Of a DNA stretch of 64,000 nt, positions 24,127-37,600 are shown in pieces. Position numbers and translations under genes: made by a program. Location of the stretch: positions 868,001 through 932,000 of the forward strand of contig NC_021741.1 of the NCBI RefSeq assembly GCF_000422085.1. The letters are read 5' to 3'. The notes beneath the pieces were generated by a model that had not been told where the DNA came from, made no database searches, and worked only from the letters and a program-made list of their open reading frames with translations. Positions within the stretch are counted from its first letter, which is position 1. The number at the start of each line of letters is the position of its first letter. Source of the stretch: Serratia liquefaciens ATCC 27592 (GTDB taxonomy: Bacteria; Pseudomonadota; Gammaproteobacteria; Enterobacterales; Enterobacteriaceae).

Positions 24127-24381
24127 TTGTAACCAAACCGAAACATCTTCAGTGCGTTGCCCTGGCCTTGGAAAAGGTGGCTGCGCCGTCTCGCTTTACG
24201 TGCGCCAGGGAGGTCAAGCACGCCAACCACAACACAATAATAAGGATCACGCCGGGCAGCCCTTGGGCTGGTCATCCAACCGTGTCCGCCATTTACCCCG
24301 CTTTTGGCCGTTATCGGCGGCAGCGGGGTTTTCGCTTCCGTTGTTTCAACATTTGTTTATGGCTTATCAAAGGTAGGTAAC

Positions 24382-25728
24382 ATGTCGGAAACTGTTTTGG
24401 CTACTGAATGGCTGCCGCTGACACCGGCGCAGTTAGACTTCTGGGACGAATTTACCTTGCACCCCGGACAGCCTTTTTCCACCGTCGCTCACGTCACCGA
24501 ACTACGCGGCGCGGTAGATGAAGAGGCGCTGTGTCGGGCTATCACTCAGACGATGGCGGAAACGCAGGCGTTTGCATTGCGTTTTCGCGGCGGCACTGGC
24601 GAGAGCTTGCCGCAGCAACGTTACGATCCCCAGGCAATACCGCAACTTAATCGCCTAGATCTTCAGGCACAGCCCGATCCCTACCAGACCGCGATGCGGC
24701 TGATGCAGGCGGATGTCGATCAACCACTGGATCTATGCAGCCAGCCGGTGGCCGCGGTGTGGTTGATCAGGCTGGGGCCTTCGCGTTTTATTTGGTACAT
24801 GCGCGCCCATCATATTGTGATTGATGGCTTTGGCATGGCGTTGGTTGAACATCGTTGTGCCGCGCTGTATGCGCATTTCCTCGACGACAGCGCGGCAGGG
24901 CACGCATTGGGCGAAATTCGTGCTTTTCAGCACCATGAACTGGCCTATGCGGCTTCTGAACGCTGCGCTAAAGACCGGTATTTTTGGCAGCGGTATTTGC
25001 CACCGTCGCAGACCTTGCCAACGGTGCGCAAAGGCGGCAGGGAATATGGCGTGAAATCCCTGAGTACCAGCACGCCGTTGCCGGAGGAGATCCCGCAGCG
25101 GTTGCGTTGGCTGTCGGAACGTAGTGGTATCGGTTGGCCCGATCTGTTGCTTTCCCTGTCCGCCGCCTGGCTGTTCTTTACCTTGCCGCCGTTGCCGCAT
25201 GATAAGGGCGATTCGCGCACCATGTGGATGCCGGTGATGAACCGCCGCAGCAGCCAGGCCACCAATACGCCGGCGCTGGCGGTCAATACGCTGCCGCTTT
25301 TGGTATCGCTGCGTGCGGAAGAGACTTTGGGCCATTTTCTGTCGGGCATGGCGAAGATGCTGCGTGAGCTGCGCAGCCACGCAGGTTACCGTCTGCGGCA
25401 CATTGCCGCAGATCGCGGTGTGACGCCGGCCTCTCGTTTGTTTATCTCGCCGTTTATCAACGTCCAGCCGTTTGATCCCGCCGGTTTCAGCGGCTGCACC
25501 TGTACGCGACGGGTACTGGCAGGAGGATCTGGCGACGGCGCTAACCTGACCTTCCGCGGGCGCACCGATGCTGGCGATCTGCACCTGGATATCGATGTTT
25601 ACGTGCAGCAGTTTGCCTGCGATGGGATCGAAGACTACGGGCGTGACCTGCAGGCGTTTTTACTGCGTGCGTTGCGGGAAGAAGCGCTGGAGACGGCGCT
25701 CGGCGAACTGGTGGCGGTGCCCGCCTGA
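24382..25728 (+). CDS. schH: free-standing NRPS condensation enzyme, VibH/SchH-like
   Basis: A 448-residue single condensation domain with intact catalytic motif HHIVIDG (H143, H144, D148). Its free-standing form and neighbourhood fit VibH of vibriobactin synthesis, which joins dihydroxybenzoyl carried on an aryl-carrier protein to a soluble diamine; the Serratia counterpart in serratiochelin synthesis is SchH, where the diamine is diaminopropane. The start at 24382 gives MSETVLATEWLPLTPAQLDFW; an AGGTA precedes it weakly. It lies downstream of the Fur palindrome and convergent to the adenylation gene. The symbol is by analogy. Confidence 0.8.
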   Translation: MSETVLATEWLPLTPAQLDFWDEFTLHPGQPFSTVAHVTELRGAVDEEALCRAITQTMAETQAFALRFRGGTGESLPQQRYDPQAIPQLNRLDLQAQPDPYQTAMRLMQADVDQPLDLCSQPVAAVWLIRLGPSRFIWYMRAHHIVIDGFGMALVEHRCAALYAHFLDDSAAGHALGEIRAFQHHELAYAASERCAKDRYFWQRYLPPSQTLPTVRKGGREYGVKSLSTSTPLPEEIPQRLRWLSERSGIGWPDLLLSLSAAWLFFTLPPLPHDKGDSRTMWMPVMNRRSSQATNTPALAVNTLPLLVSLRAEETLGHFLSGMAKMLRELRSHAGYRLRHIAADRGVTPASRLFISPFINVQPFDPAGFSGCTCTRRVLAGGSGDGANLTFRGRTDAGDLHLDIDVYVQQFACDGIEDYGRDLQAFLLRALREEALETALGELVAVPA

Positions 25729-25829: not shown

Positions 25830-27701
25830 TTAACGTGCCAACAACGCCGCCACTTCCCGCGCATTTTTGCAGGGGATTAACAGCGTTGGCGGCAGTTGGG
25901 TGTCAAAGGCCTGGTTAAGCTGCGCCGCCACCTGGCGAATGTGTGGCAGCTTCAACCCCATGCTGATAAAGGCCGTTTCTTCTCCCCATTCCGGGCGCGG
26001 CGTTGCGCCGATAGCCTGCAAATAGATCGACAGGATCTTGCCGCTGTGCGCCGGTGGCGCGCTCGGCAGCGGTGCCGCACAGGCATTCAGGCCCGGAGTG
26101 GCACGATCGGCGCTGAAGGCTGCGCGGATGCGGTGACGGTCGGTCTTGCCGTTACCCGACAGCGGCAGCAACTCGGTATGAATAAAGCGTGTCGGGATAT
26201 GGGTACAAGGAAGGTAGCCGGTCGAAAAAGCGCGGATCGCCGCCAGCGACAGCGGTTTGCCGTCGTGGGTGAGGTACATCGCCCCGAGCGTCGCTTCGCC
26301 ATTGTCACCGCCAGGGTAATCCACTACCACGATATCGACAATAGCCTCGTGTCCGCGCAACACATCTTCAATTTCCGGCAGCGAAACGCGCACGCCACGG
26401 ATTTTCACGTAGCCGTTCACCCGGCTGGCGAACAGGATATTGCCGTCCGGACGATAGTACCCCTGATCGCCGGTACGGAAGGCCCGCAGCGGTTGCCCGT
26501 CGGGCCCCTCCAGCGTAACGAAATCATGTTGTTTTAAATCACCGTCCTCCAGATACCCCAGCGCCAGATTCACCCCGGAGGTGTGGATGCGGCCGACCAC
26601 GCCGGTCGGGCAGTGGGTACCGTCGTCATGGCAGATAAAGTATTGGTTAGCCGGCAGCGGCTGACCATAAGGCACGGTGCCGGTGTCCTGCGGCGCTAGC
26701 GGGTGCCAGATGCTCCAGATGGTGGTTTCGGTCGGGCCACCGAGTGAGAACAGGCTGATGTCCGGACGCAGGCCGCGCAATTGCTGTACCGTCGCCGGTT
26801 TGATGTAATCGCCCCCCTGAGCCACCAGTCGCAGCGAACGCAGGCTGTCGTCGGTTTTACAGGTAAGCAGCATTTCCAGAATGGCGGGGACCGAACACCA
26901 CAGGCTGACGCCATGGCGCTCAACCAACTGGTTCCAACTGATGGCGTCCTTTTCCTGATGTGGTGCCGGTAACACCAGCGTGGCACCGGCGCTGAGCGAG
27001 CCGAACAGATCAAACATCGACATATCGTGGTGCGGCGGCGTGACCGAAATCATCACGTCGTCGGCGGTGACCGCCCAGCGCTGCAGGGTCTGGCCGATAA
27101 CGTTGGCGGTGGCGCGGTTATTGAGCACCACGCATTTCGGTTTGCCGGTGGTACCGGAGGTATACAGATAATAACTGGCTTCGGTGCTGACGCTGCGCTC
27201 GGTCAGCGTCTGGCTGTCCGGCAGCTTGGCGGCGCCCGCCGTCGGGTCAAGCAGTTCCACTGGCGTAACCCCGAACGAGGTGTCCAGCTCACCCTTGTGT
27301 ACCACCAGATCCGGCCGGCAGTTGGTCAGCAGATAGGCGGTACGTTCCGGCGGTGAGTTGATGTCGATCGGCACCCAGATAATGCCCAACAGCGCACAGG
27401 CGAGTGAAATGGTTACATGCTCCGGGCTGCGCGCCAGATACAAGGCCAGCACGCTGCCTGGCTTCAGGCCACGCTGTTGCAGATTTGCCATCACTGCGCT
27501 AACCCGTTGGCCCAATTCCGGGTACGTCAGGCTTAGTTGGTCGCAGATTAACGCGGGGCGCGGCTGCGGATCGTTAAACAACCTGTCGGCCAACTGCGCA
27601 AGATAAGGGTAAGCGCTGAATGACGTCTCGCTGTGGTTATGGCGGTAATGTTGGTAATCGATAAATTGCGCGGGGGAATTTCCACATCGCCGTCCCGGCA
27701 C
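25830..27701 (-). CDS. NRPS adenylation protein with degenerate carrier domain (A-PCP*)
   Basis: Contains a full adenylation domain (about 35-525): A3 YLYTSGTTGKPK (178-189), A5 GGPTETTIW (321-329), A7 RTGD (409-412), A8 VKIRGVRVSLPEIE (432-445), A10 NGKTDR (517-522). The surrounding sequence (SLGGPTETTIWSIWHP) resembles A domains that serve heterocyclization modules, so Thr/Ser/Cys is a likely substrate; Thr is expected if the product is a serratiochelin. A C-terminal carrier-like segment (about 555-620) has L585 where the pantetheine Ser should be. The nominal GTG start at 27701 lies inside the Cy2 gene and has no Shine-Dalgarno; homology suggests a one-base frameshift joins the two (see findings). 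Probably one of the split VibF (SchF) pieces. Confidence 0.8.
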   Translation of the reverse strand: MPGRRCGNSPAQFIDYQHYRHNHSETSFSAYPYLAQLADRLFNDPQPRPALICDQLSLTYPELGQRVSAVMANLQQRGLKPGSVLALYLARSPEHVTISLACALLGIIWVPIDINSPPERTAYLLTNCRPDLVVHKGELDTSFGVTPVELLDPTAGAAKLPDSQTLTERSVSTEASYYLYTSGTTGKPKCVVLNNRATANVIGQTLQRWAVTADDVMISVTPPHHDMSMFDLFGSLSAGATLVLPAPHQEKDAISWNQLVERHGVSLWCSVPAILEMLLTCKTDDSLRSLRLVAQGGDYIKPATVQQLRGLRPDISLFSLGGPTETTIWSIWHPLAPQDTGTVPYGQPLPANQYFICHDDGTHCPTGVVGRIHTSGVNLALGYLEDGDLKQHDFVTLEGPDGQPLRAFRTGDQGYYRPDGNILFASRVNGYVKIRGVRVSLPEIEDVLRGHEAIVDIVVVDYPGGDNGEATLGAMYLTHDGKPLSLAAIRAFSTGYLPCTHIPTRFIHTELLPLSGNGKTDRHRIRAAFSADRATPGLNACAAPLPSAPPAHSGKILSIYLQAIGATPRPEWGEETAFISMGLKLPHIRQVAAQLNQAFDTQLPPTLLIPCKNAREVAALLAR

Positions 27702-28924
27702 ATCAACATTACCCGACGTTGCAATGCGTCCAGCATTGCCTGAACTTGCTCACCATCCAACGCCTGCTCGGCGTAGTCGACGCACAGCAGCAGGTTCTTG
27801 TCGGCATCTTGTGTCAGGCGGATATCGATCGCCACCTGCGGCGTCTGGGTCACGCCGTCATGGTAGCGAACCGGCGCGTTGCCAGGCAGCGTCTCCCACC
27901 CCAGGCAGTTGGTGAGGATCACCGGCAGCGCCGGGGAACCCTGGCTGAGGTTTAGCAACTGCCGCGCCAGATCAACACCGGAAAATGCCAGATGGTCTAG
28001 CGCCCCCAGCACGTCGTCCTGCAAGGCCTGGGCGCGGCTGATAAAGGTGCCCCCCAGGCGGGAATAGCGTACCGCCACAAAGGTAGAGGCGTTGCTGAGC
28101 GCACCATTTGCCGCAGGAAACGCCACCGGCACGCCGACGCAGAGTTCGCCGTCGGTGGTCCACTGCGCCAGCGTATCGAGGATCAGAGCCGAAAGGCTGC
28201 TGTTGCGCAGCAGGGCATGGGCGGAACCTAGGCGCGAGAACTGTTTTAGAACCTCGCGCGGCAAAGTCAGGTTGGCGCGGCGATAGCGAGAGGATTTGAT
28301 ATTGGCCAGCGGGGTGCGCCACGGCAACGCCGACGGCGTGGTGACGTCCTGTAGCTTGGCTTGCCAGTAGGCGGCATCAATCTGACGCTGTTCCGCCGTG
28401 GCTGCAGCCGGTGGGCTTGGCGGCACGACAGGCGGCAGCGGGGCGTCGTCGAACAGCCGGGCGATGACGGTGGAGATACCCTGGCCGTCGAGGATCAGCG
28501 CGTCGAAGCTGGTGAAAATCACGGTGTCGTAGGGGTTGCCGGTGGCGTCCTGCGTCTCCGAGAACTGAATGGCGGCAATACGCCACAACGGCTGCGCGGG
28601 ATCGTGGCGCTGATGCGAATATTGCTCGCGCAAGTCAGCCAATTGGCGTTGCGCTGCCTGATGGTCGAGCGCACGCAGATCGTGCCGATCCAGATTCAGC
28701 GTGGCCTCTGCCCGCACGTGTTGGGTGAAACGCTGGGTATCGATGCAAGTGCGCAGCGCCGCATAGTGCTGCACCAGTTCGCTCAATCGGCTTTCCAGGC
28801 GGGCCAAATCCAGTCCCAGACCGCGATATTCGCGAAAGTCGTGCATCGCTACGCCGCCGAGCGGCCATTGTTCGCTGCGCCCGAGCAGGTAAGCCTGCTG
28901 CAGTGCGCTTAATGGTGTCTCCAT
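27548..28924 (-). CDS. NRPS heterocyclization domain protein Cy2 (VibF-like fragment)
   Basis: The N-terminal about 430 residues form a Cy domain: LSALQQAYLLGRSEQWPLGGVAMH at the start, the Cy core D141-A-L-I-L-D146-G-Q-G149, and TQTPQVAIDIRLTQD. Cy domains condense and cyclize Thr/Ser/Cys to oxazoline or thiazoline. The third motif position is Gly instead of the usual Ser. The last about 50 residues have no homology because the frame departs from the A-domain frame near a C5 run (27672-27676, shown as G on the plus strand). It starts 75 bases after Cy1 on the same strand, probably in one operon with it. Confidence 0.8.
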   Translation of the reverse strand: METPLSALQQAYLLGRSEQWPLGGVAMHDFREYRGLGLDLARLESRLSELVQHYAALRTCIDTQRFTQHVRAEATLNLDRHDLRALDHQAAQRQLADLREQYSHQRHDPAQPLWRIAAIQFSETQDATGNPYDTVIFTSFDALILDGQGISTVIARLFDDAPLPPVVPPSPPAAATAEQRQIDAAYWQAKLQDVTTPSALPWRTPLANIKSSRYRRANLTLPREVLKQFSRLGSAHALLRNSSLSALILDTLAQWTTDGELCVGVPVAFPAANGALSNASTFVAVRYSRLGGTFISRAQALQDDVLGALDHLAFSGVDLARQLLNLSQGSPALPVILTNCLGWETLPGNAPVRYHDGVTQTPQVAIDIRLTQDADKNLLLCVDYAEQALDGEQVQAMLDALQRRVMLMCRDGDVEIPPRNLSITNITAITTARRHSALTLILRSWPTGCLTIRSRAPR

Positions 28925-28999
28925 GGTATTTCCCTATTGATTGTCACTAACCCACGAAATAGAAAGCAGGGCGCATGAGACCACGCGCCCGGATCGGTA

Positions 29000-30601
29000 T
29001 CAGGCTTTGGGTGCCAGCACCTGCAATAACAGTTGAGCGCCCTCGGCGGCATTGGGGGCTCGCTCGCAGATCACTGCGGCAAGAGCGGCCGGAGTCGGGT
29101 TCGCCTCTATATCCTTCGGCGCCAGCGCCACCGGCAGGTATTTGTTAAGTACCGCCAATAGGGCCATCAGAGCGTCCTGCGGCAGTTGCAGGGTACGGAT
29201 ATCGTCATCGTCACCCAGCCTGGCGTCCGGCGCGACCCGCGCCAGCAGCCGGTGCAGCAGTTGGCGAACCGGCATCTGACGTGCCTGGCCCGCTGAGGAG
29301 CATTGCGCCAACCACTGCGAAAGTGGCTGATTAAAGCTGTCCGGCCGGTTGGCGGCCCGTTTCAGCAAGGCGCCGTAAGTGGCGAACAGCTGCGGCAACA
29401 GCCGATCAGGGAAGGCGTCCAGGCGGACGTCCCAGTTGATCAGAATGCCGCCGTTGGCGTGTGCCACCTGCGCGTCCAGCGCCACCTGCGGCCCCTGGGA
29501 AATTACCCACTCCAGCGGGCCAAAGGTGCGGGTGACGTTGTCAGAAAACAACGCTTTGCCACGGATGCCAAACCCGGCGGTAAACACGACGGGTGAAGGC
29601 TGCATGCTGCCTTGCAGGCGCGACAAATCGCGCATCACGCTGACGCCGGGGTAATCGGCGTGAGCTATTAACTCCGCCAGCTGGGCCATCAGGCGGCGGC
29701 TGAAAGCCGGCAAGTTTTCAGCCGGGTTCAGCTCCACGCCCAGCAGCACCAGGTTAGAGAAGTCGCCAATGATCGGGGCGAGGTTGGCTTCATCCCGGTG
29801 GAACAGCGGCACGTTGAGCCTGAAGCGCGGCATGTTCCAGCCATGGCCGACGGTAACGGCAAACAGCGCCAGAAACAGGGATGACAGCGTGATGCCGTGC
29901 GCTCTGGCGGCATCCTCCAGCGCTTTGGTTTCGCTCGCGCTCAGTTGCAGCGCCAGCCGATCGCTGCGGCAAATATCCGGCGTGCGCAACAGGTGTGGTG
30001 CCGGCGGCAGCTGAGGCAGGCGTTCACGCCACCAGGCCTGAGCGCGAGTGCGACGTGACTGCTGCGCGGTATCGGCATAGTGACGATCCAGATAGTCAAA
30101 GTAGGGTACGCCATTGTCGGCGGGGGATGCCGGACATTGGTGATAAAACCGCGCCAAATCCTCCATCAACACGCGGAAACCCATGGCATCGCCGGCGATC
30201 ATATCCAGATCAACATGCAGCCTGCTGTGGCCGCCCGGCAGCAGGCTGAGGCTGATATCGCAGGGGATACCTTGTTCCAGCGGCAGTTTTTGGCTGCTTT
30301 TTTGCTGCCGTTTGGCTGTGAGCCGGTGGCTCGCTTCGGGGGTATCGAACTGGCTGAAATCGTCCAGATGCAGGCCATGCTCAGGGCCGCAGGGGCTGAT
30401 GGTCTGCTGGCCATCGGCCGTGATGCACAGGCGCAACATAGGGTGATGCAGGTAAAGGGCGGCAACGGCCTGTCTCAGTCGTTCGACGTCCAGGTCGCAG
30501 CAGTTAAATTCCGCATACAGGTGGGCGGATACGCCCCCCAGCGGCGCTTCGGATTGCCGACCTACCCAGTAGGCGGCCTGCATCGTGGTCAACGCTTTCA
30601 T
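29000..30601 (-). CDS. NRPS heterocyclization protein Cy1 with degenerate carrier domain
   Basis: A 533-residue protein. Residues about 1-430 are a Cy domain (LTTMQAAYWVGRQSEAPLGGVSAH, motif D133-M-I-A-G-D138-A-M-G141, PLFHRDEANLAPIIGDFSNLVLL, SQGPQVALDAQVA). The C-terminal about 445-515 looks like a carrier domain in which the DSL motif reads D476-A477-L478, so no phosphopantetheine can attach. In VibF the two Cy domains are fused; here they are separate. It is the first gene leftward from the shared Fur-controlled promoter region. Confidence 0.82.
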   Translation of the reverse strand: MKALTTMQAAYWVGRQSEAPLGGVSAHLYAEFNCCDLDVERLRQAVAALYLHHPMLRLCITADGQQTISPCGPEHGLHLDDFSQFDTPEASHRLTAKRQQKSSQKLPLEQGIPCDISLSLLPGGHSRLHVDLDMIAGDAMGFRVLMEDLARFYHQCPASPADNGVPYFDYLDRHYADTAQQSRRTRAQAWWRERLPQLPPAPHLLRTPDICRSDRLALQLSASETKALEDAARAHGITLSSLFLALFAVTVGHGWNMPRFRLNVPLFHRDEANLAPIIGDFSNLVLLGVELNPAENLPAFSRRLMAQLAELIAHADYPGVSVMRDLSRLQGSMQPSPVVFTAGFGIRGKALFSDNVTRTFGPLEWVISQGPQVALDAQVAHANGGILINWDVRLDAFPDRLLPQLFATYGALLKRAANRPDSFNQPLSQWLAQCSSAGQARQMPVRQLLHRLLARVAPDARLGDDDDIRTLQLPQDALMALLAVLNKYLPVALAPKDIEANPTPAALAAVICERAPNAAEGAQLLLQVLAPKA

Positions 30602-31107
30602 CGGGTTTCCATCAGTATTGAGAGACTGTAAGAATATATTGCAATGTTAATGGGAATGAAAATTATTACTATTTTTATTTGTTGGTATAAAACGTAAGGG
30701 TAATGTGGAAAGGGGAGATTCTCGCTCGCTTATAGAAAATATTAATACTGATATAATTATGTTTTATATTCATTTTAATTGAAATTATTGGTTTTATAGA
30801 ACCCACAATAACTGCGTTTTATCGTTCAGCACTTTACCCGCTGCGCATCCTGTTTATTTGTTTAGTTGATAATGATTTGCATTAAAAAATGTAAAATATT
30901 ATCATTATTAACATTTCTTTACGTTTCCAGACAAAAAATCTGCGTCCGCCCCCGGTTTATCTGGGGTGGGGCGGCTGTCTGCGGCAGGGATATGCAATAG
31001 CAAGGTCAGGAAGGCCGCAATGCCATTGTCAGTGTGAGAATCAGCGTCGTTACCTATGTGAAATAAAACATATTTTTGTGCATCTGGGATGAAAGGAGAA
31101 TACATCT
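30602..31107. promoter_or_regulatory. divergent Fur-regulated promoter region of the siderophore locus
   Basis: A 506-base AT-rich gap between Cy1 and the receptor gene. A 19-base sequence at 30868-30886 (GATAATGATTTGCATTAAA) matches the Fur consensus well, and a second TATTATCATTATTAA-type stretch is at 30896-30911. Together they would control both directions. Bases 30920-31080 hold nothing I recognise. Confidence 0.75.
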
Positions 31108-33231
31108 ATGAGCAAGCATTCAGCGGCTCAAAGGCATAAAATCGTAGGAAACAAGGAAAAAGCAGGCTTGCAAGCCATTGGGGCATTTTCCTCACTCTTT
31201 CTGGGTCTTTGTTCTTTATCTGTGGGCAGCGTTAATGCCGCCGCAGTGGACGAAAAGGTGCAGGAAGCCGCCGACAGCAAACGTAACGATAATTGGCAGG
31301 ACTCCGAAAGCCTGCTGGTGACCGGCGAAAAGATAAAGCGCAGCATTTTCGACACCGGCTCCAGCGTGCAGGTGTTCGACAGTGAGCGGATCGCCGCTAT
31401 GCCCAATGCGTTGCAGATCCCCGATTTATTACGCATGACGGCCAACGTCATGGATGTTGGCATCGGTAACGATCTGCCCACCGTACGCGGTATCGACGGC
31501 TCCGGCCCGAACACCGGCGCCAACGCCTTCCTCAGCGGCACCCGTCCGCGCCTCAATTTGTCTCTGGATGGTCGCTCCCTGACCTATAACGAGCAGGCCT
31601 ATGGCCCGCAGTCGCTGTGGGATCTGGATCGCGTCGAAGTGTTCCTCGGCCCGCAGAGCTATATTCAGGGGCGTAACGCCATTGCCGGTGCGATCGTGAT
31701 GGCCAGTAAGGATCCCACTTTCGATTGGGAGAGTGCCTTCAAGGGCGGTGCGGGCAACCAGCACTCTTCGCAATTGTCCGCTATGGTTTCAGGCCCGCTG
31801 GTGGAAGATCAACTGGCGTTCCGCGTCAGCGTCGATCGCCAGCGTCGCCGCAGCGATGTCGATCTTCCTGCTTATGAGCCGGTGGGCGATCCGCGTGAGG
31901 TTGAAGCCACTACCGCACGTGCCAAACTGTTGTTCAATCCGGCAGGCCTGCGCGAGCTGACCACCAAGCTGACCTTTAACCACTTTGGCAGCACCTCGCC
32001 ACAAAACGAGAGCCTCAACCCGCTGGTTCACCCGACCAGCCTGCGCCACGATCCGCGCCGAGCGGTGTTTAAAAGCAACACCAACAGCGGCGTTTGGGAT
32101 CTGTCCTGGGAGCAATCCGACAGCCTGACGCTGGAAAACCGCGTTATTTATACCGACTTCAATATTAACCGTCCTACGGCTTATGCCTTGCCGTACGCCG
32201 ATATCGGCGGAAAAGAGGTGCACGTGGAGCCGGTGGCGCGTTTTGGTGGGCCAGACAGCCGCCTGCGCGGGCTGGCGGGGTTGCGTTATTTCCACTCCAA
32301 GCAGGATGAGTTCGTTAATATTTTCGGCGGTTCGACCTTCAAGGATAAAACCGACACCAACTCGGCCTTTGCCGAGCTGACCTACGCCATCACGCCGAAG
32401 GTGGATATCACCGCCGCCAGCCGTTTGGAACGCGAGCACCGTCAGCGTACCGGCGGCAGCAAGGCCGTGCGTATCGATTTCGATGAAACCTACGACGTAT
32501 TCCTGCCGAAGCTGGATCTGGCCTGGAAACCGACGGATACCCAGACCTACGGCGCCAAGGTGGCGCGCGGCTATAACGCCGGTGGCGCAGGCATCACCAT
32601 CGGCACGCCGGTAGTCAATTACACCTATGGTTCGGAATATGTCTGGAACTATGAGTTGTACACCCGTCACCACCTGAAAGATGCCAACGTCATCCTGACC
32701 AGCAACATCTTCTACAACGACTACAAGGACATGCAGCTGCCGTATTCCCTGGGGCCGAACTCCTCGGTGATCCGCAATGCCGACAAGGTGGAAACCTACG
32801 GCGCGGAAATGGGGGCGACCTGGCAGCCGCGTTGGGACTTCGAACTGTTCACGAACGTCGGTCTGCTGAAGACCAAGATCAAGAAGTTCTCGGGCAGCGG
32901 CGTAGATGGGCATGAACTGGCGCGTGCGCCGGCTTATACCGCCAACATGGGCGCCAAGTACCAGTTGATGGCCGGGTTGGAACTGAGCGGCAACGTGGCG
33001 TTCTCGGACTCCTACTACTCGCAGTACGACAACGACTCTCGCGGGCGCATCGGATCTTACTGGTCGGCGAATACTCAACTGGCGTACACCTTCGCCTATG
33101 GCCGCGCCACCCTGTATGCGCAGAACCTGTTTGACTCGGAACGTCGCGTGATGGTCAGCGGCAACGACGTCTACACCGCGACTCAGCAGCGTCCACGCAT
33201 GATCGGTGCGGCGCTGGAACTGACATTCTGA
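31108..33231 (+). CDS. TonB-dependent siderophore receptor
   Basis: A 707-residue outer-membrane receptor: extended signal (to about residue 45, NAAA), a TonB-box-like ESLLVTGEKIK, plug domain (about 65-190; PTVRGIDGSG, VEVFLGPQSYIQGRNAIAGAI) and a 22-strand barrel ending in an aromatic residue (LELTF). AAGGAG precedes the ATG. Given its place between the NRPS genes it probably imports the Fe-siderophore made here, like ViuA for vibriobactin. Confidence 0.9.
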   Translation: MSKHSAAQRHKIVGNKEKAGLQAIGAFSSLFLGLCSLSVGSVNAAAVDEKVQEAADSKRNDNWQDSESLLVTGEKIKRSIFDTGSSVQVFDSERIAAMPNALQIPDLLRMTANVMDVGIGNDLPTVRGIDGSGPNTGANAFLSGTRPRLNLSLDGRSLTYNEQAYGPQSLWDLDRVEVFLGPQSYIQGRNAIAGAIVMASKDPTFDWESAFKGGAGNQHSSQLSAMVSGPLVEDQLAFRVSVDRQRRRSDVDLPAYEPVGDPREVEATTARAKLLFNPAGLRELTTKLTFNHFGSTSPQNESLNPLVHPTSLRHDPRRAVFKSNTNSGVWDLSWEQSDSLTLENRVIYTDFNINRPTAYALPYADIGGKEVHVEPVARFGGPDSRLRGLAGLRYFHSKQDEFVNIFGGSTFKDKTDTNSAFAELTYAITPKVDITAASRLEREHRQRTGGSKAVRIDFDETYDVFLPKLDLAWKPTDTQTYGAKVARGYNAGGAGITIGTPVVNYTYGSEYVWNYELYTRHHLKDANVILTSNIFYNDYKDMQLPYSLGPNSSVIRNADKVETYGAEMGATWQPRWDFELFTNVGLLKTKIKKFSGSGVDGHELARAPAYTANMGAKYQLMAGLELSGNVAFSDSYYSQYDNDSRGRIGSYWSANTQLAYTFAYGRATLYAQNLFDSERRVMVSGNDVYTATQQRPRMIGAALELTF

Positions 33232-33384
33232 TGCGATAGCAATCGGTCTGCAGCAGGGGCGTATTCACGCCTTGGATTGTTGGCGCTTGCGCGAGTTTGT
33301 CAGCGATCTGTGGTAGATACGTCCCTGTTTATGACCCGCGTTCCCCCGAGGTTCCGGTATGGCCGGGCACAAGGAGATAGAGCA

Positions 33385-36321
33385 GTGAGCGGTTATTTTG
33401 ACAATATTCTCAGCGATGACGAGGCCCAGCGTCTGGACCTGGCGTTTCAGACGCTGGGCGAGCGGGCGGCGGATGCCTCACAGCCATTGAGCGAAGCGGA
33501 AGAACTGGCGTGGTTCATGCACCAGCAGCGCGGCGACGGCGGTTGCCAGCAGGCGATGGCCTGGCGGCTGGGCGGCGAGCCGGATATCGGCAGACTGGCC
33601 AGCGCGCTGGAGGCTCTGACCCGACTGATGCCGGAACTGGACGTTCGTTACGATTTCGACGATGAGCAAGGCTTACGCAAACTGCGCGGCAACGCAACGC
33701 TGAATCCGGTGAGCATTCAGCCTGTCGCGGACGAACAGCAGGCGGTAAGCCGTCTGTTGCAAGCGCAGGCGACGCCTCTTGAGTTGGCAAGCGAAGCGCC
33801 GCTTCGTTTTCTGCTGTTTACCGGTGCCGGTTCGGTGCTGGGCGTCGTTGCCCACGATATTTTGGCTGAAAGGCTGTCGTGTCGACAATTATTGACGATG
33901 CTGTCGGCGCTGTATAATCGCCATGATCCCCTGCCAGTCCCGGACACTCTGTCGCCGGTTGCACTGAATAATCCATTGCCGGAAGCGACGGAGCTGGTTC
34001 TGCCGTGGCCACGCCATGCGACAGCGCTGCGGGACTACCGACAATTGGCAGCACAGGACGAACGTCTGGCGCAGGCCGGGGTACGTATAGCGACCCGCGT
34101 GGCGCGCAAGATTTTGCCCGTAACCGATAACCCAACCACCTTACTGGCGGCGATCACCGTTCGCTTTGGCCGCTTTATCGCCGCTCAGTCCGGCGGGCAA
34201 CCGGTGCAGTTGTGCGTGCCGCTCGACGACGCACAACAGGCGAACGGTATGGACGGCTGGCAGGGCGCCAGCCGATTGAAACGCCTGACCTTGCAGCCTG
34301 CGGATCAGGAGGCGGAAAGCCGACTGCTGGCACAGCAAACGGCGGAAGCGCCCAACCCAGAATTGGCTCAGCTTCTGGTGAGCTGGCTGGCGGATCCTTC
34401 GGTGGCGCTGCAGTTGGATGGGGTTAACGCTGAACGCCTGCTGTTACCGCCGCTGCATACGCCTTTTGAACTGATGCTGGCTTTGAGCCTGCCCGAGCCG
34501 GACTCGATGGTGTTGGAGCTAGTGGCGGATCCGCGCCTGACCCCGCATGTCGCGCCGTTCCTGCTGGAGCAGTTCGTCGCTTATCTCGCCGGACGGACGA
34601 TCACGACAGCCCTGCTGCCTGCCGCTGAGCAACCGTTGGCCCAGCCCGAAGCTGTCCTGGCGGGAGAGGATGCACAACAACAAGAAAATGATGAAATCGC
34701 CCAATTGATCCTGGCGGAATTCCGCGATGCCCTGGTGGCGCCGGACATGACCGTCGATGAAGATTTCTTCGATCGCGGCGGGCATTCGCTGGTCGCGACC
34801 CGCGTCATCGGTCGCTTGTTAAGCCTGCACCGTATCGAACTCAACATTAACGACCTGTTCAGTCACGCCACGGCCCGAGGGCTGTCGGCCTACGCCAAAC
34901 GTCAGGCGGTTACGGCACCGGCGGTACAAGCGCCCAGTACGCAGCTGCGGGATGAGGTGGTCCAGGCACCGCTGTCGCTGGCCCAGCACTCCCTGTGGAA
35001 AGTGTACGAGGCCTTCGGTCACGACGAGATTTTCAATCTGCCTTTCGCCATCAATTTCCTCGATCCGGTGGATGAAATGGCCCTGCGTCAGGCGTTTATC
35101 GACGTCATGACGCGCCACAGCGTATTGCGTTCACTGTTTATCGAACATCAGGGGGAGGTTCGCCAACAGGTCGTGCCTGCGGCTGAACTGCTCGATTACG
35201 AGTGGTTCCACTTCTCTTATGAAACACCGGCCGGTAACGCCAGCGAACTGTTGGCCAAGGCCGGCGACCACCGCTTTGATCTGACCCGCGAGCTGCCGCT
35301 GCGCGCTACCTTCCTGCGTGACGCGGCAACCGGCCGGCAACTGCTTTCGCTGCTGTTCCACCATGTGGTGCTGGATGAATGGTCGCTGAACCTGATGATG
35401 GACGAGCTGGGCATCGCCTACAGCCACCGTGTGGCAGGGCAGAAGCCGCAGTGGAAAGGTGAAGTGCCGCAGTTTTATGCCTTTGCCCGGCAGCAGCAGG
35501 CCGGCGGCGTCGCACAGCAACACCTGGACTATTGGCTCGATAACCTGCGCGATGCGCCGGTCGGTCAGCCGCTGTTCCAGCAGGAACCTTCGCACCATCC
35601 TGCAGTCCCGGCCGATGCAGACGTCAACGGCGGATGGCTGGAATTTGACGTCGAACCAACGGTGGCTGAGGGGTTGTACGCGCAGGCCAGGAAGAACAAC
35701 GCCTCACTGTTCAACGTGGTCTACGCCGGTATCACTACGGCGCTGCGCCTGTTGGGCGGTCCGACGGATCTGCTGGTGGGGACTTCCACCTCCGGCCGTA
35801 ACGACGCCGAGTTCTTTGACACCATCGGCTACTTCACCACGGTGGTGGTGCACCGGGTGCGCTTCGCCGACCAGCTGACGGTCGCTGGGCTGATTGACCA
35901 GGTGAAAAACACCATCAATGGTTCTATGCCTTACACCGATATTCCTATCGATCTGGTGGAAGAAGGGCTGTTTGGTGCTCATGCCGACCGCAAGAACCAC
36001 ATGTTCGAAGTGTTCATTCAGATCCACAGCCGTATCAAGCTGAACGGGGCATTTACCCTGCAGGACGGCAGCACGGTGGCCTATCGTCAGGTGGAGCCGG
36101 AGAAAACCGAATCGCTGCTCGGTTTGCAGTTTGAAGTGATGGAAGAAAACCTCGACGGCGTGAAATCCCTGCGCGTGATGATGACCTACCGTACCGATCA
36201 TTACACCGCGCAACAGGCGGGGTTGATCGCTGCAACTATTCAGCACGTGTTCTCTCACTTTGCCCAACAGGCCGGCGGGGACATGCCACTGTCGGCCTTG
36301 CCGCCGGCGCCACAGCAATAA
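33385..36321 (+). CDS. NRPS C-PCP-C protein (VibF C-terminal-half equivalent)
   Basis: A 978-residue protein from GTG at 33385 (AAGGAG 8 bases upstream). C1 (about 25-420) is degenerate: HHxxxDG is replaced by AHDILAE around H157. PCP (about 425-500) is intact with DRGGHSL, Ser468 being the pantetheine site. C2 (about 520-970) has HHVVLDE (H659, H660, D664), catalytically complete apart from Gly to Glu at the last position. This is exactly the C1-PCP-C2 end of VibF, whose C1 is also known to be catalytically inactive and used for dimerization. C2 probably releases the oxazoline acyl chain onto the DHB-diamine made by the VibH-like enzyme. A third (Cy1, Cy2/A) part of the synthetase is on the other strand. 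Confidence 0.87.
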   Translation: MSGYFDNILSDDEAQRLDLAFQTLGERAADASQPLSEAEELAWFMHQQRGDGGCQQAMAWRLGGEPDIGRLASALEALTRLMPELDVRYDFDDEQGLRKLRGNATLNPVSIQPVADEQQAVSRLLQAQATPLELASEAPLRFLLFTGAGSVLGVVAHDILAERLSCRQLLTMLSALYNRHDPLPVPDTLSPVALNNPLPEATELVLPWPRHATALRDYRQLAAQDERLAQAGVRIATRVARKILPVTDNPTTLLAAITVRFGRFIAAQSGGQPVQLCVPLDDAQQANGMDGWQGASRLKRLTLQPADQEAESRLLAQQTAEAPNPELAQLLVSWLADPSVALQLDGVNAERLLLPPLHTPFELMLALSLPEPDSMVLELVADPRLTPHVAPFLLEQFVAYLAGRTITTALLPAAEQPLAQPEAVLAGEDAQQQENDEIAQLILAEFRDALVAPDMTVDEDFFDRGGHSLVATRVIGRLLSLHRIELNINDLFSHATARGLSAYAKRQAVTAPAVQAPSTQLRDEVVQAPLSLAQHSLWKVYEAFGHDEIFNLPFAINFLDPVDEMALRQAFIDVMTRHSVLRSLFIEHQGEVRQQVVPAAELLDYEWFHFSYETPAGNASELLAKAGDHRFDLTRELPLRATFLRDAATGRQLLSLLFHHVVLDEWSLNLMMDELGIAYSHRVAGQKPQWKGEVPQFYAFARQQQAGGVAQQHLDYWLDNLRDAPVGQPLFQQEPSHHPAVPADADVNGGWLEFDVEPTVAEGLYAQARKNNASLFNVVYAGITTALRLLGGPTDLLVGTSTSGRNDAEFFDTIGYFTTVVVHRVRFADQLTVAGLIDQVKNTINGSMPYTDIPIDLVEEGLFGAHADRKNHMFEVFIQIHSRIKLNGAFTLQDGSTVAYRQVEPEKTESLLGLQFEVMEENLDGVKSLRVMMTYRTDHYTAQQAGLIAATIQHVFSHFAQQAGGDMPLSALPPAPQQ

Positions 36322-36367: not shown

Positions 36368-37600
36368 ATGTCTGGAACAATAGGAACACCCCGCGCTTTA
36401 CTGTCGCTGTTGATTGCAACGTCGTTGGTGGTGGCCGGTGCGGCGCAGGCCCGTGACGCAGGGATCTCTCAGCAGGATATCAAGCGCCAGCCGTTGTCGT
36501 CGGCGCTGGTGGAAATGGCCTACAGCCCAAGCCAGAAGTCGCTGTTCGTCAGCGCACCGGACTGGAAGGAAGAGGCGAAATCCCGCGTGTTGCGTCTGGA
36601 TCCGACCACGTTGGCGGTGCAGGCGGAGATCCCTCTGCAGGTGAAGGGGTTCGGCGTAGCCCTGGATGATGCCGGCCACCGGCTGTATCTGACTCAAGGG
36701 TTCAATGGCTCGGTCGGCGTGGTGGATACCACCACCAACCGTGCGCTGGACAGCATTCCGGTGACCGAAAAAACGATGCTGGAGCAGACCTACAAGGAGG
36801 CCGGTATCAGCGGCAAGCGCCTGGAGTTCCTGCTCAAGGAGCTTAAGCGCTTCAAGATCACTGAAGACTACCAGTACCGCATCCGCGAAATGAAGTATGA
36901 CGCGCAGAGCGGCCGCCTGTTCTTGCCGGGGTTGGGTTTTGGGGTAGATAGCGTGCTGTTTGTGGTCAACACCCGGACTCAAAAGCTGGAGAAAATGATC
37001 CCCGGTTTCGGCTACAACGCGGTGGGCATCACTCTGGATGAGAAAGGACGGCGCGTATTTGTCTCTAACATGCAGGGGCAACTGATTACCCTGAATGCCG
37101 ATACCCTGGCGATCACCTCTACCAAAGAGATTCAAGCGGATCAGCTGCTGAACCTGGTGTACGACGGGAAGAATAACCGTCTGTTAGGGGTGGATCAGGG
37201 GATCGACCGCGACAACTACCGCAATACCCACCTTGAGCGCGACTACGTGAAGCGCAGCAGCGGTCACCGGGTGTTTGCGCTGGATGCGGACAGCGGCAAA
37301 GTGTTGGCCAGCGAACTGACCGATGAAGTGCCAATTGGCCTGCTGTTGGACGATCGCAACCAGCGTGTGTACGTCGCCAACCGCAAAGGGATCCGCGTCG
37401 ATCATGGCGCAGGTACGTTGACGGTGTTTGATTCAAACAGCCTCAAGCGCCTGCAAACCGTAGAACTGCCGCCGCACCCTAACAGCCTGGCGCTGGACAC
37501 CAGCAACAACGTGTTGTTCGTGACGGTGAAGAATGACGGAGCCAGCACCAAAGCCGGCAAACCGGAAAGCGTTGTCCGTATTCAACTGCCAAAAAACTGA
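36368..37600 (+). CDS. YncE-like periplasmic beta-propeller protein
   Basis: A 410-residue secreted protein (signal to about residue 28, AQA) with repeated blade motifs such as HRLYLTQGFNGSVGVVDTTTN, RRVFVSNMQGQLITL and NNVLFVTVKNDG, typical of the YVTN/YncE seven-bladed propeller. In E. coli yncE sits by yncD, a TonB-dependent receptor gene, and is iron regulated. Here it follows receptor and NRPS genes by 46 bases, so a role in siderophore handling is likely but unproved. Confidence 0.85.
   Translation: MSGTIGTPRALLSLLIATSLVVAGAAQARDAGISQQDIKRQPLSSALVEMAYSPSQKSLFVSAPDWKEEAKSRVLRLDPTTLAVQAEIPLQVKGFGVALDDAGHRLYLTQGFNGSVGVVDTTTNRALDSIPVTEKTMLEQTYKEAGISGKRLEFLLKELKRFKITEDYQYRIREMKYDAQSGRLFLPGLGFGVDSVLFVVNTRTQKLEKMIPGFGYNAVGITLDEKGRRVFVSNMQGQLITLNADTLAITSTKEIQADQLLNLVYDGKNNRLLGVDQGIDRDNYRNTHLERDYVKRSSGHRVFALDADSGKVLASELTDEVPIGLLLDDRNQRVYVANRKGIRVDHGAGTLTVFDSNSLKRLQTVELPPHPNSLALDTSNNVLFVTVKNDGASTKAGKPESVVRIQLPKN

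Follow-up and report, generated by a model that had tools for sequence, protein, structure and literature searches.

A sch-type siderophore locus of Serratia: an interrupted schF2 gene and serine-less carrier-like domains with a possible docking role

Genes of the sch locus

The window, which is the whole 64,000-nucleotide stretch of DNA that was analyzed, belongs to a genome of 5.28 Mb in 2 contigs. It contains schH, schF2, schF1, a siderophore receptor gene and schF3 together in the sch layout (Table 1). An earlier, sequence-only reading had described Cy, Cy and A domains on the minus strand, C-PCP-C on the plus strand and a VibH-like enzyme (SchH) alongside, and all of these are present as described. 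They lie in separate genes on two strands and do not form a VibF-like single chain of Cy1-Cy2-A-C1-PCP-C2. Reading of the sequence makes ATG 24382 a likelier start of schH than TTG 24304. The Fur-box-like site was found with a Fur-box consensus. Directly after schF3 there is a YncE-like β-propeller gene (36368-37600), which was also seen in loci L031, L045, L046, L052 and L078. By tblastn such a gene adjoins the C-PCP-C gene in 34 of 70 loci, some of them from the same genome; the 34 are 29 Serratia loci and those of Pantoea A4, an E. coli plasmid, Citrobacter, Serratia sp. H1w and Intestinirhabdus.

Table 1. Features of the locus, in window coordinates
Feature	Position	Strand	Remarks
schH (VibH-like amide synthase)	24304..25728	+	Pfam Condensation 119.9 bits; HHxxxDG intact in translation
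A part of schF2, ends in psiT2	25830..27701	-	Pfam AMP-binding 241.5 bits
psiT2 (serine-less carrier-like domain, C-end of SchF2)	25833..26045	-	
Cy2 part of schF2	27548..28924	-	
schF1 (Cy1, then psiT1)	29000..30601	-	Pfam Condensation 107 bits; DMIAGD motif
psiT1 (serine-less carrier-like domain and one extra C-terminal helix)	29003..29284	-	
Fur-box-like site	30868..30883	+	Between divergent schF1 and receptor genes; 1 match vs 0.05 expected (window, shuffling)
TonB-dependent siderophore receptor	31108..33231	+	TIGR01783 254.2 bits, above cut-off
schF3 (C-PCP-C)	33277..36321	+	Probable start GTG 33385
C1 of SchF3 (degenerate)	~33496-34617		
PCP of SchF3	~34681-34911		
C2 of SchF3	~34963-36273		

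The sequence-only reading had allowed that the genes might lie nearest to a different siderophore family. Among the named loci, the closest C-PCP-C proteins are those of Serratia, with a S. liquefaciens MAG at the top (95% identity). Of 29 further genomes from the genus, 25 carry the C-PCP-C gene, and the four genomes without it have sizes of 1.5, 1.9, 2.5 and 3.6 Mb. S. plymuthica NBRC 102599 shows the architecture of the window, but its SchF2 is whole. No plasmid-borne copy was found by megablast in 72,556 plasmid records. The natural parts of the synthetase are SchF1 (Cy1), SchF2 (Cy2-A) and SchF3 (C-PCP-C), together with SchH and the receptor, as in S. plymuthica V4. The locus therefore belongs to a known kind, the sch cluster having already been described, and it is almost certainly the serratiochelin locus of a close relative of S. 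liquefaciens within Serratia.

Genes for DHB, which the earlier reading expected elsewhere in the genome, are present. In a profile search EntE scored above its cut-off outside the sch locus, and beside it lie an isochorismate synthase (above the TIGR00543 cut-off) and an isochorismatase. An EntA-like open reading frame and the ArCP serine were seen by sequence reading only, and an EntF-like protein reaches 1855 bits, below its cut-off of 2400. DHB can be supplied from this enterobactin-type locus, and in S. plymuthica a cluster of this type is described as the source of DHB in the available part of one report (PMC7962358). For diaminopropane, dat (above its cut-off) stands side by side with a ddc-like gene that matches RhbB, a diaminobutyrate decarboxylase, with 413 bits, below the cut-off of 900. 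The A-domain pocket motifs of the window agree with those of VibF and BasA. Serratiochelin is the likely product on the basis of sequence, as had been proposed, and this is supported by the Serratia relatives, the gene set and layout and the DHB and diaminopropane genes. Another option is that the main product is a different DHB-oxazoline amide, such as photobactin, which is built on putrescine. The same part of that report states that one set of enzymes also yields photobactin in S. plymuthica V4, but that serratiochelins are >80% of its siderophores, and that schF3 and schH mutants of S. plymuthica lose the polyamine siderophores (PMC7962358). As dat and the ddc-like gene are also present in the window genome, we consider such a product unlikely.

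In the window genome schF2 is found in two frames, so three intact SchF proteins are not encoded. The Cy2 and A frames (461 and 639 codons when counted between stops) overlap at 27548-27701, and the frameshift is located there, in the Cy2-A linker. In 16 of 16 fetched relatives, drawn from the 25 genomes of the genus with the C-PCP-C gene, Cy2 and A form one open frame of 1031-1034 codons. The best database match of the window's A frame is P0001, an intact Cy2-A protein of 1031 aa that is 99% identical and has 378 members. The sequence-only reading had counted four natural pieces; its placement of the domains holds, but the Cy2/A boundary is in all probability a frameshift of this assembly, either a mutation or a sequencing error. 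One could suggest that the gene is truly divided and gives two working proteins, since the break falls in the linker and both domains thus look whole, and since A-psiT also occurs as a protein by itself, as in BasA. This is very improbable given the single frame in all 16 relatives and in P0001, and the A frame also shows no convincing start of its own by sequence reading; its GTG 27701 falls within the Cy2 gene and is probably no real start. There was no sign of a second copy: elsewhere in the genome, Pfam Condensation matches only the EntF-like protein. With schF2 interrupted in its linker, either the strain is without a whole SchF2 or the assembly contains an error. The sch locus and the frameshift, taken as one reading, are highly probable, and the finding as first given is ordinary, because the cluster has been described before and the supposed fourth piece comes from a frameshift.

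Serine-less carrier-like domains of SchF2 and SchF1

The last ~70 residues of SchF2, here termed psiT2, resemble a carrier domain. PF00550 (PP-binding) matches 25 of 25 homologous pieces at E values up to 1, and the window's psiT2 at E 0.003, below the curated cut-off; in whole-protein Pfam scans at E 0.001 PP-binding is listed for neither SchF1 nor the A open reading frame. The psiT2 profile is in register with that of true PCPs (67%, E 5e-5 for one comparison). Its AF2 model is carrier-like (pLDDT 90.3), and in Foldseek nearly all the matches listed are to carriers or to structures that contain one (TM up to 0.79, best E 0.0026). The serine of the phosphopantetheine site is found in 0 of 273 A-subunit tails among the matches listed and the loci, so psiT2 does not have the serine of a functional peptidyl carrier, and in 80 of 80 true PCPs it is present. 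In these same 273 tails the site holds Pro (213), Leu (56) or another residue or a gap (4), and psiT2 shows a pattern of its own, with G at -3 in 261, L at -2 in 250 and H at +2 in 232. The 273 tails come from 223 database clusters and 50 loci, and they and the 80 PCPs hold overlapping species. From the 232 A proteins we omitted 6 that are incomplete at the A end, 2 with tails of <60 aa (P0079 and P0139) and the one fused VibF. P0139, a 1404-aa Cy1-Cy2-A protein of Brenneria tiliae, ends without a pseudo-carrier.

A similar domain, psiT1, follows Cy1 in SchF1. PF00550 matches 12 of 13 psiT1 pieces at E up to 1, the piece of the window lying above the cut-off. The AF2 model is again carrier-like (pLDDT 89.5), and Foldseek E-values were never <0.001 for either psiT1 or psiT2. 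The psiT1 profile is only weakly like that of true PCPs (15%) and aligns with psiT2 over 74 columns (67%). No serine stands at the site in any of 88 Cy1 tails, as a functional peptidyl carrier would have; the position is a gap in 30 of them, and in 12 a serine lies within one residue of it. Omitted from the 88 were P0323, P0325, P0326 and P0328, which have a true GGDS carrier, and P0249, which is partial and without a tail. Among 78 stand-alone, full-length Cy1 proteins (14 of 92 were omitted as partial or of other architecture), 77 have at least 70 aa after Cy1, and 73 of these are without GGxS. Photorhabdus, Affinibrenneria, Roseibium and others have stand-alone Cy1 proteins with tails of the psiT1 type. 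By eye, 25 contigs could be matched by their length between the Cy1 and Cy2-A lists, and those pairs therefore probably lie together.

Selection on the domains was compared in 11 Serratia genomes out of the 16 fetched relatives. The dN/dS of psiT2 is 0.073, next to 0.074 for A and C2 and 0.053 for the true PCP, and psiT2 is under purifying selection. Values are 0.154 for psiT1, 0.155 for C1, 0.137 for Cy1 and 0.118 for Cy2, and the linkers give 0.29-0.34 in SchF3 and 0.134 and 0.144 in SchF2; psiT1 is thus no more constrained than the SchF2 linkers.

Divided lines and a possible docking role

The sequence-only reading saw a VibF-type enzyme that is split here. The separate form, however, is common and the fusion is the exception. 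The likely product of that reading stood, and the four pieces and the direction of the split did not. We scored ~8,000 candidates sharing most words and analyzed 240 proteins, the best 120 of 1566 for a query including psiT2 and the best 120 of 317 for a query without it; because its query region excluded psiT2, the latter sample was not chosen for this domain. The 240 listed proteins comprise 107 Cy1-Cy2-A-psiT2, 76 Cy2-A-psiT2, 27 A without a scored psiT2, 8 A-psiT2, 7 Cy1-Cy2-psiT2 and 14 others, and one Cy1-Cy2-A-C1-T-C2 chain, which is V. cholerae VibF (P0136). This is also the only protein of >2000 aa among the best 120 of 317, where the length limits admit VibF. Among 394 genomes drawn from the order, 9 match the C-PCP-C protein at E 1e-75 and none has a frame of >1131 aa. 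In the genus of V. penaeicida 23 of 227 genomes match; two candidates for a fused VibF there, suggested by frame length, were rejected, as stop codons separate two frames in their DNA. The usual form is Cy-Cy-A plus C-PCP-C, and V. cholerae VibF is a rare fusion.

Several variants were seen along the way. The E. coli conjugative plasmid L031 (NZ_AP022088.1) bears a VibF-type set with a VibH-like gene, Cy1-Cy2-A-psiT2, fepB-like transport genes, a receptor, C-PCP-C and the YncE-like gene. C-PCP-C proteins with 2-3 tandem PCPs occur in Vibrio/Motilimonas loci (L050, L051, L056, L057, L058, L068 and L079). In Rhodobacter sp. TJ_12 (L073, 3820-9537) a single frame of 1906 codons joins a VibH-like domain to the end of psiT2, which is thus internal. 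An apparent absence of Cy1 in Pluralibacter (L070) was rejected, since a 41%-identity match sits on another contig of that genome.

By analogy with VibF and the S. plymuthica literature, the enterobactin locus would provide the aryl carrier on which DHB is loaded, SchF2 would load Thr through its A domain onto the PCP of SchF3, Cy2 of SchF2 would form DHB-Thr on this PCP and Cy1 of SchF1 would close the oxazoline. SchH would make DHB-diaminopropane, and C2 of SchF3 would join it to the oxazoline part. With the roles assigned in this way the three SchF proteins must meet on one PCP, and because one PCP serves three proteins, the association in trans that had been proposed earlier is very likely.

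One question that is raised from these structures is what holds such a divided line together. One explanation is that psiT1 and psiT2 are docking domains made from dead carriers, which couple the divided line, and we give this about an even chance. In a similar manner to a carrier that docks on the next C domain, psiT2 may dock on the dead C1 of SchF3, and psiT1 may dock on SchF2 or SchF3. As a general statement, that divided VibF-type lines are held by serine-less carriers at open joints, each docking the next subunit, is evenly balanced between being right and wrong; here too psiT2 would sit on the dead C1, and the coupler would be lost upon gene fusion, as in VibF. Both domains stand at a subunit terminus that faces another subunit, P0139 being an exception. 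The proposal is also in line with the complete loss of the serine from both kinds of tail (among the matches listed), as against its presence in every true PCP, and with the closed joints of V. cholerae VibF, where psiT2 is absent between A and C1 and psiT1 is absent between Cy1 and Cy2. In joined Cy1-Cy2 chains the median linker is 11 aa (n = 124; one is of 80 aa). The carrier likeness of both domains (PF00550, AF2) and the dN/dS of psiT2, similar to that of A, also count in favour. Against docking, the fused A-C1 contrast comes from one lineage (P0136), and P0139 is without psiT2. The slight profile likeness of psiT1 to true PCPs, a psiT1 dN/dS no lower than in the SchF2 linkers, the 12 of 88 tails with a nearby serine, the Foldseek E-values and the whole-protein Pfam scans count against it as well.

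The proposed partner was looked at in 51 loci (L033-L082 and L085) of 74, the 23 weak ones being omitted. Every C1 match in the 51 loci starts at profile position 1 or 2, and 20 of them stop short of position 190; what is retained of C1 is thus its N-terminal part. The 20 loci in which only this part is matched, the rest seemingly being lost, are L032, L045, L049, L052, L060-L067, L069, L072, L075, L077, L080-L082 and L085. Four Rhodobacter-type loci with PCP-C2 (L071, L073, L074 and L076) show no C1 match, though their A subunits carry psiT2, and this speaks against C1 as the universal partner of psiT2.

Another hypothesis is that the pseudo-carriers serve the adjoining A or Cy domain, in its folding or its activity, or bind some other partner, and do not dock. 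psiT2 comes directly after A and is equally conserved (dN/dS 0.073 vs 0.074), and it is retained in loci without a C1 match. Yet the homologous A domain of V. cholerae VibF manages without psiT2, and joined Cy1-Cy2 chains manage without psiT1, which leaves this hypothesis a substantial minority chance. The pseudo-carriers could also be functionless relics of old modules, given the missing serine and the degenerate C1, an example of a dead domain in the locus; the AngR PCP, too, is described as non-functional (PMC6836290). For a relic, however, psiT2 is under purifying selection (0.073) and has gained the conserved G, L and H pattern given above (261, 250 and 232 of 273, among the matches listed), and this makes a relic improbable.

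If the docking explanation is true, it would define a class of NRPS docking domain that consists of a whole dead carrier, and it would explain how serratiochelin-, photobactin-, acinetobactin- and anguibactin-type synthetases of many Proteobacteria assemble from separate proteins, as well as the retention of dead carriers and of a dead C domain. The domains would also be of use in NRPS engineering as a coupling part. With the AngR PCP, dead carriers as such are already on record for this family. The pattern across the whole family and its connection with open joints were not found in the open-licence literature, including a docking-domain review (PMC9113145), and may already be in print.

Comparison with known systems

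Cluster p2 of S. plymuthica V4 (schH, schF1F2F3) has the same genes as the window, in which schF2 differs by being interrupted by the frameshift. The comparison with V4, which had been suggested for this DNA, also gave the same accession order: the available text lists H, F2, F1, one gene between and F3, and describes schF1F2F3 as vibF homologues (PMC5635690).

In the acinetobactin (BasD/BasA/BasB) and anguibactin (AngN/AngR/AngM) systems Cy-Cy, A and PCP-C are on separate proteins, like in the window. BasA (P0102) also ends in a serine-less carrier-like tail, and the PCP of AngR is without its serine according to the accessible part of its description (PMC6836290). These systems differ from the window in the position of the cuts and in the N-hydroxyhistamine acceptor, and docking is not mentioned in the available parts of their accounts.

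A carrier as part of a docking unit, to which psiT can be likened, is found in the complex of PaxA T1-CDD with PaxB NDD (PDB 7b2b), as far as its partly available description goes. In Foldseek this structure is at rank 20 for psiT1 and at rank 25 for psiT2. The carrier of the PaxA/PaxB complex is reportedly functional and accompanied by a separate short docking element, unlike psiT.

V. cholerae VibF and VibH share with the window the six domains and the VibH homologue. In VibF, C1 is inactive, Cy2 condenses and Cy1 cyclises, as stated in the section available of its description (PMC5577590). In contrast to the window, V. cholerae VibF is one chain, with neither psiT1 nor psiT2.
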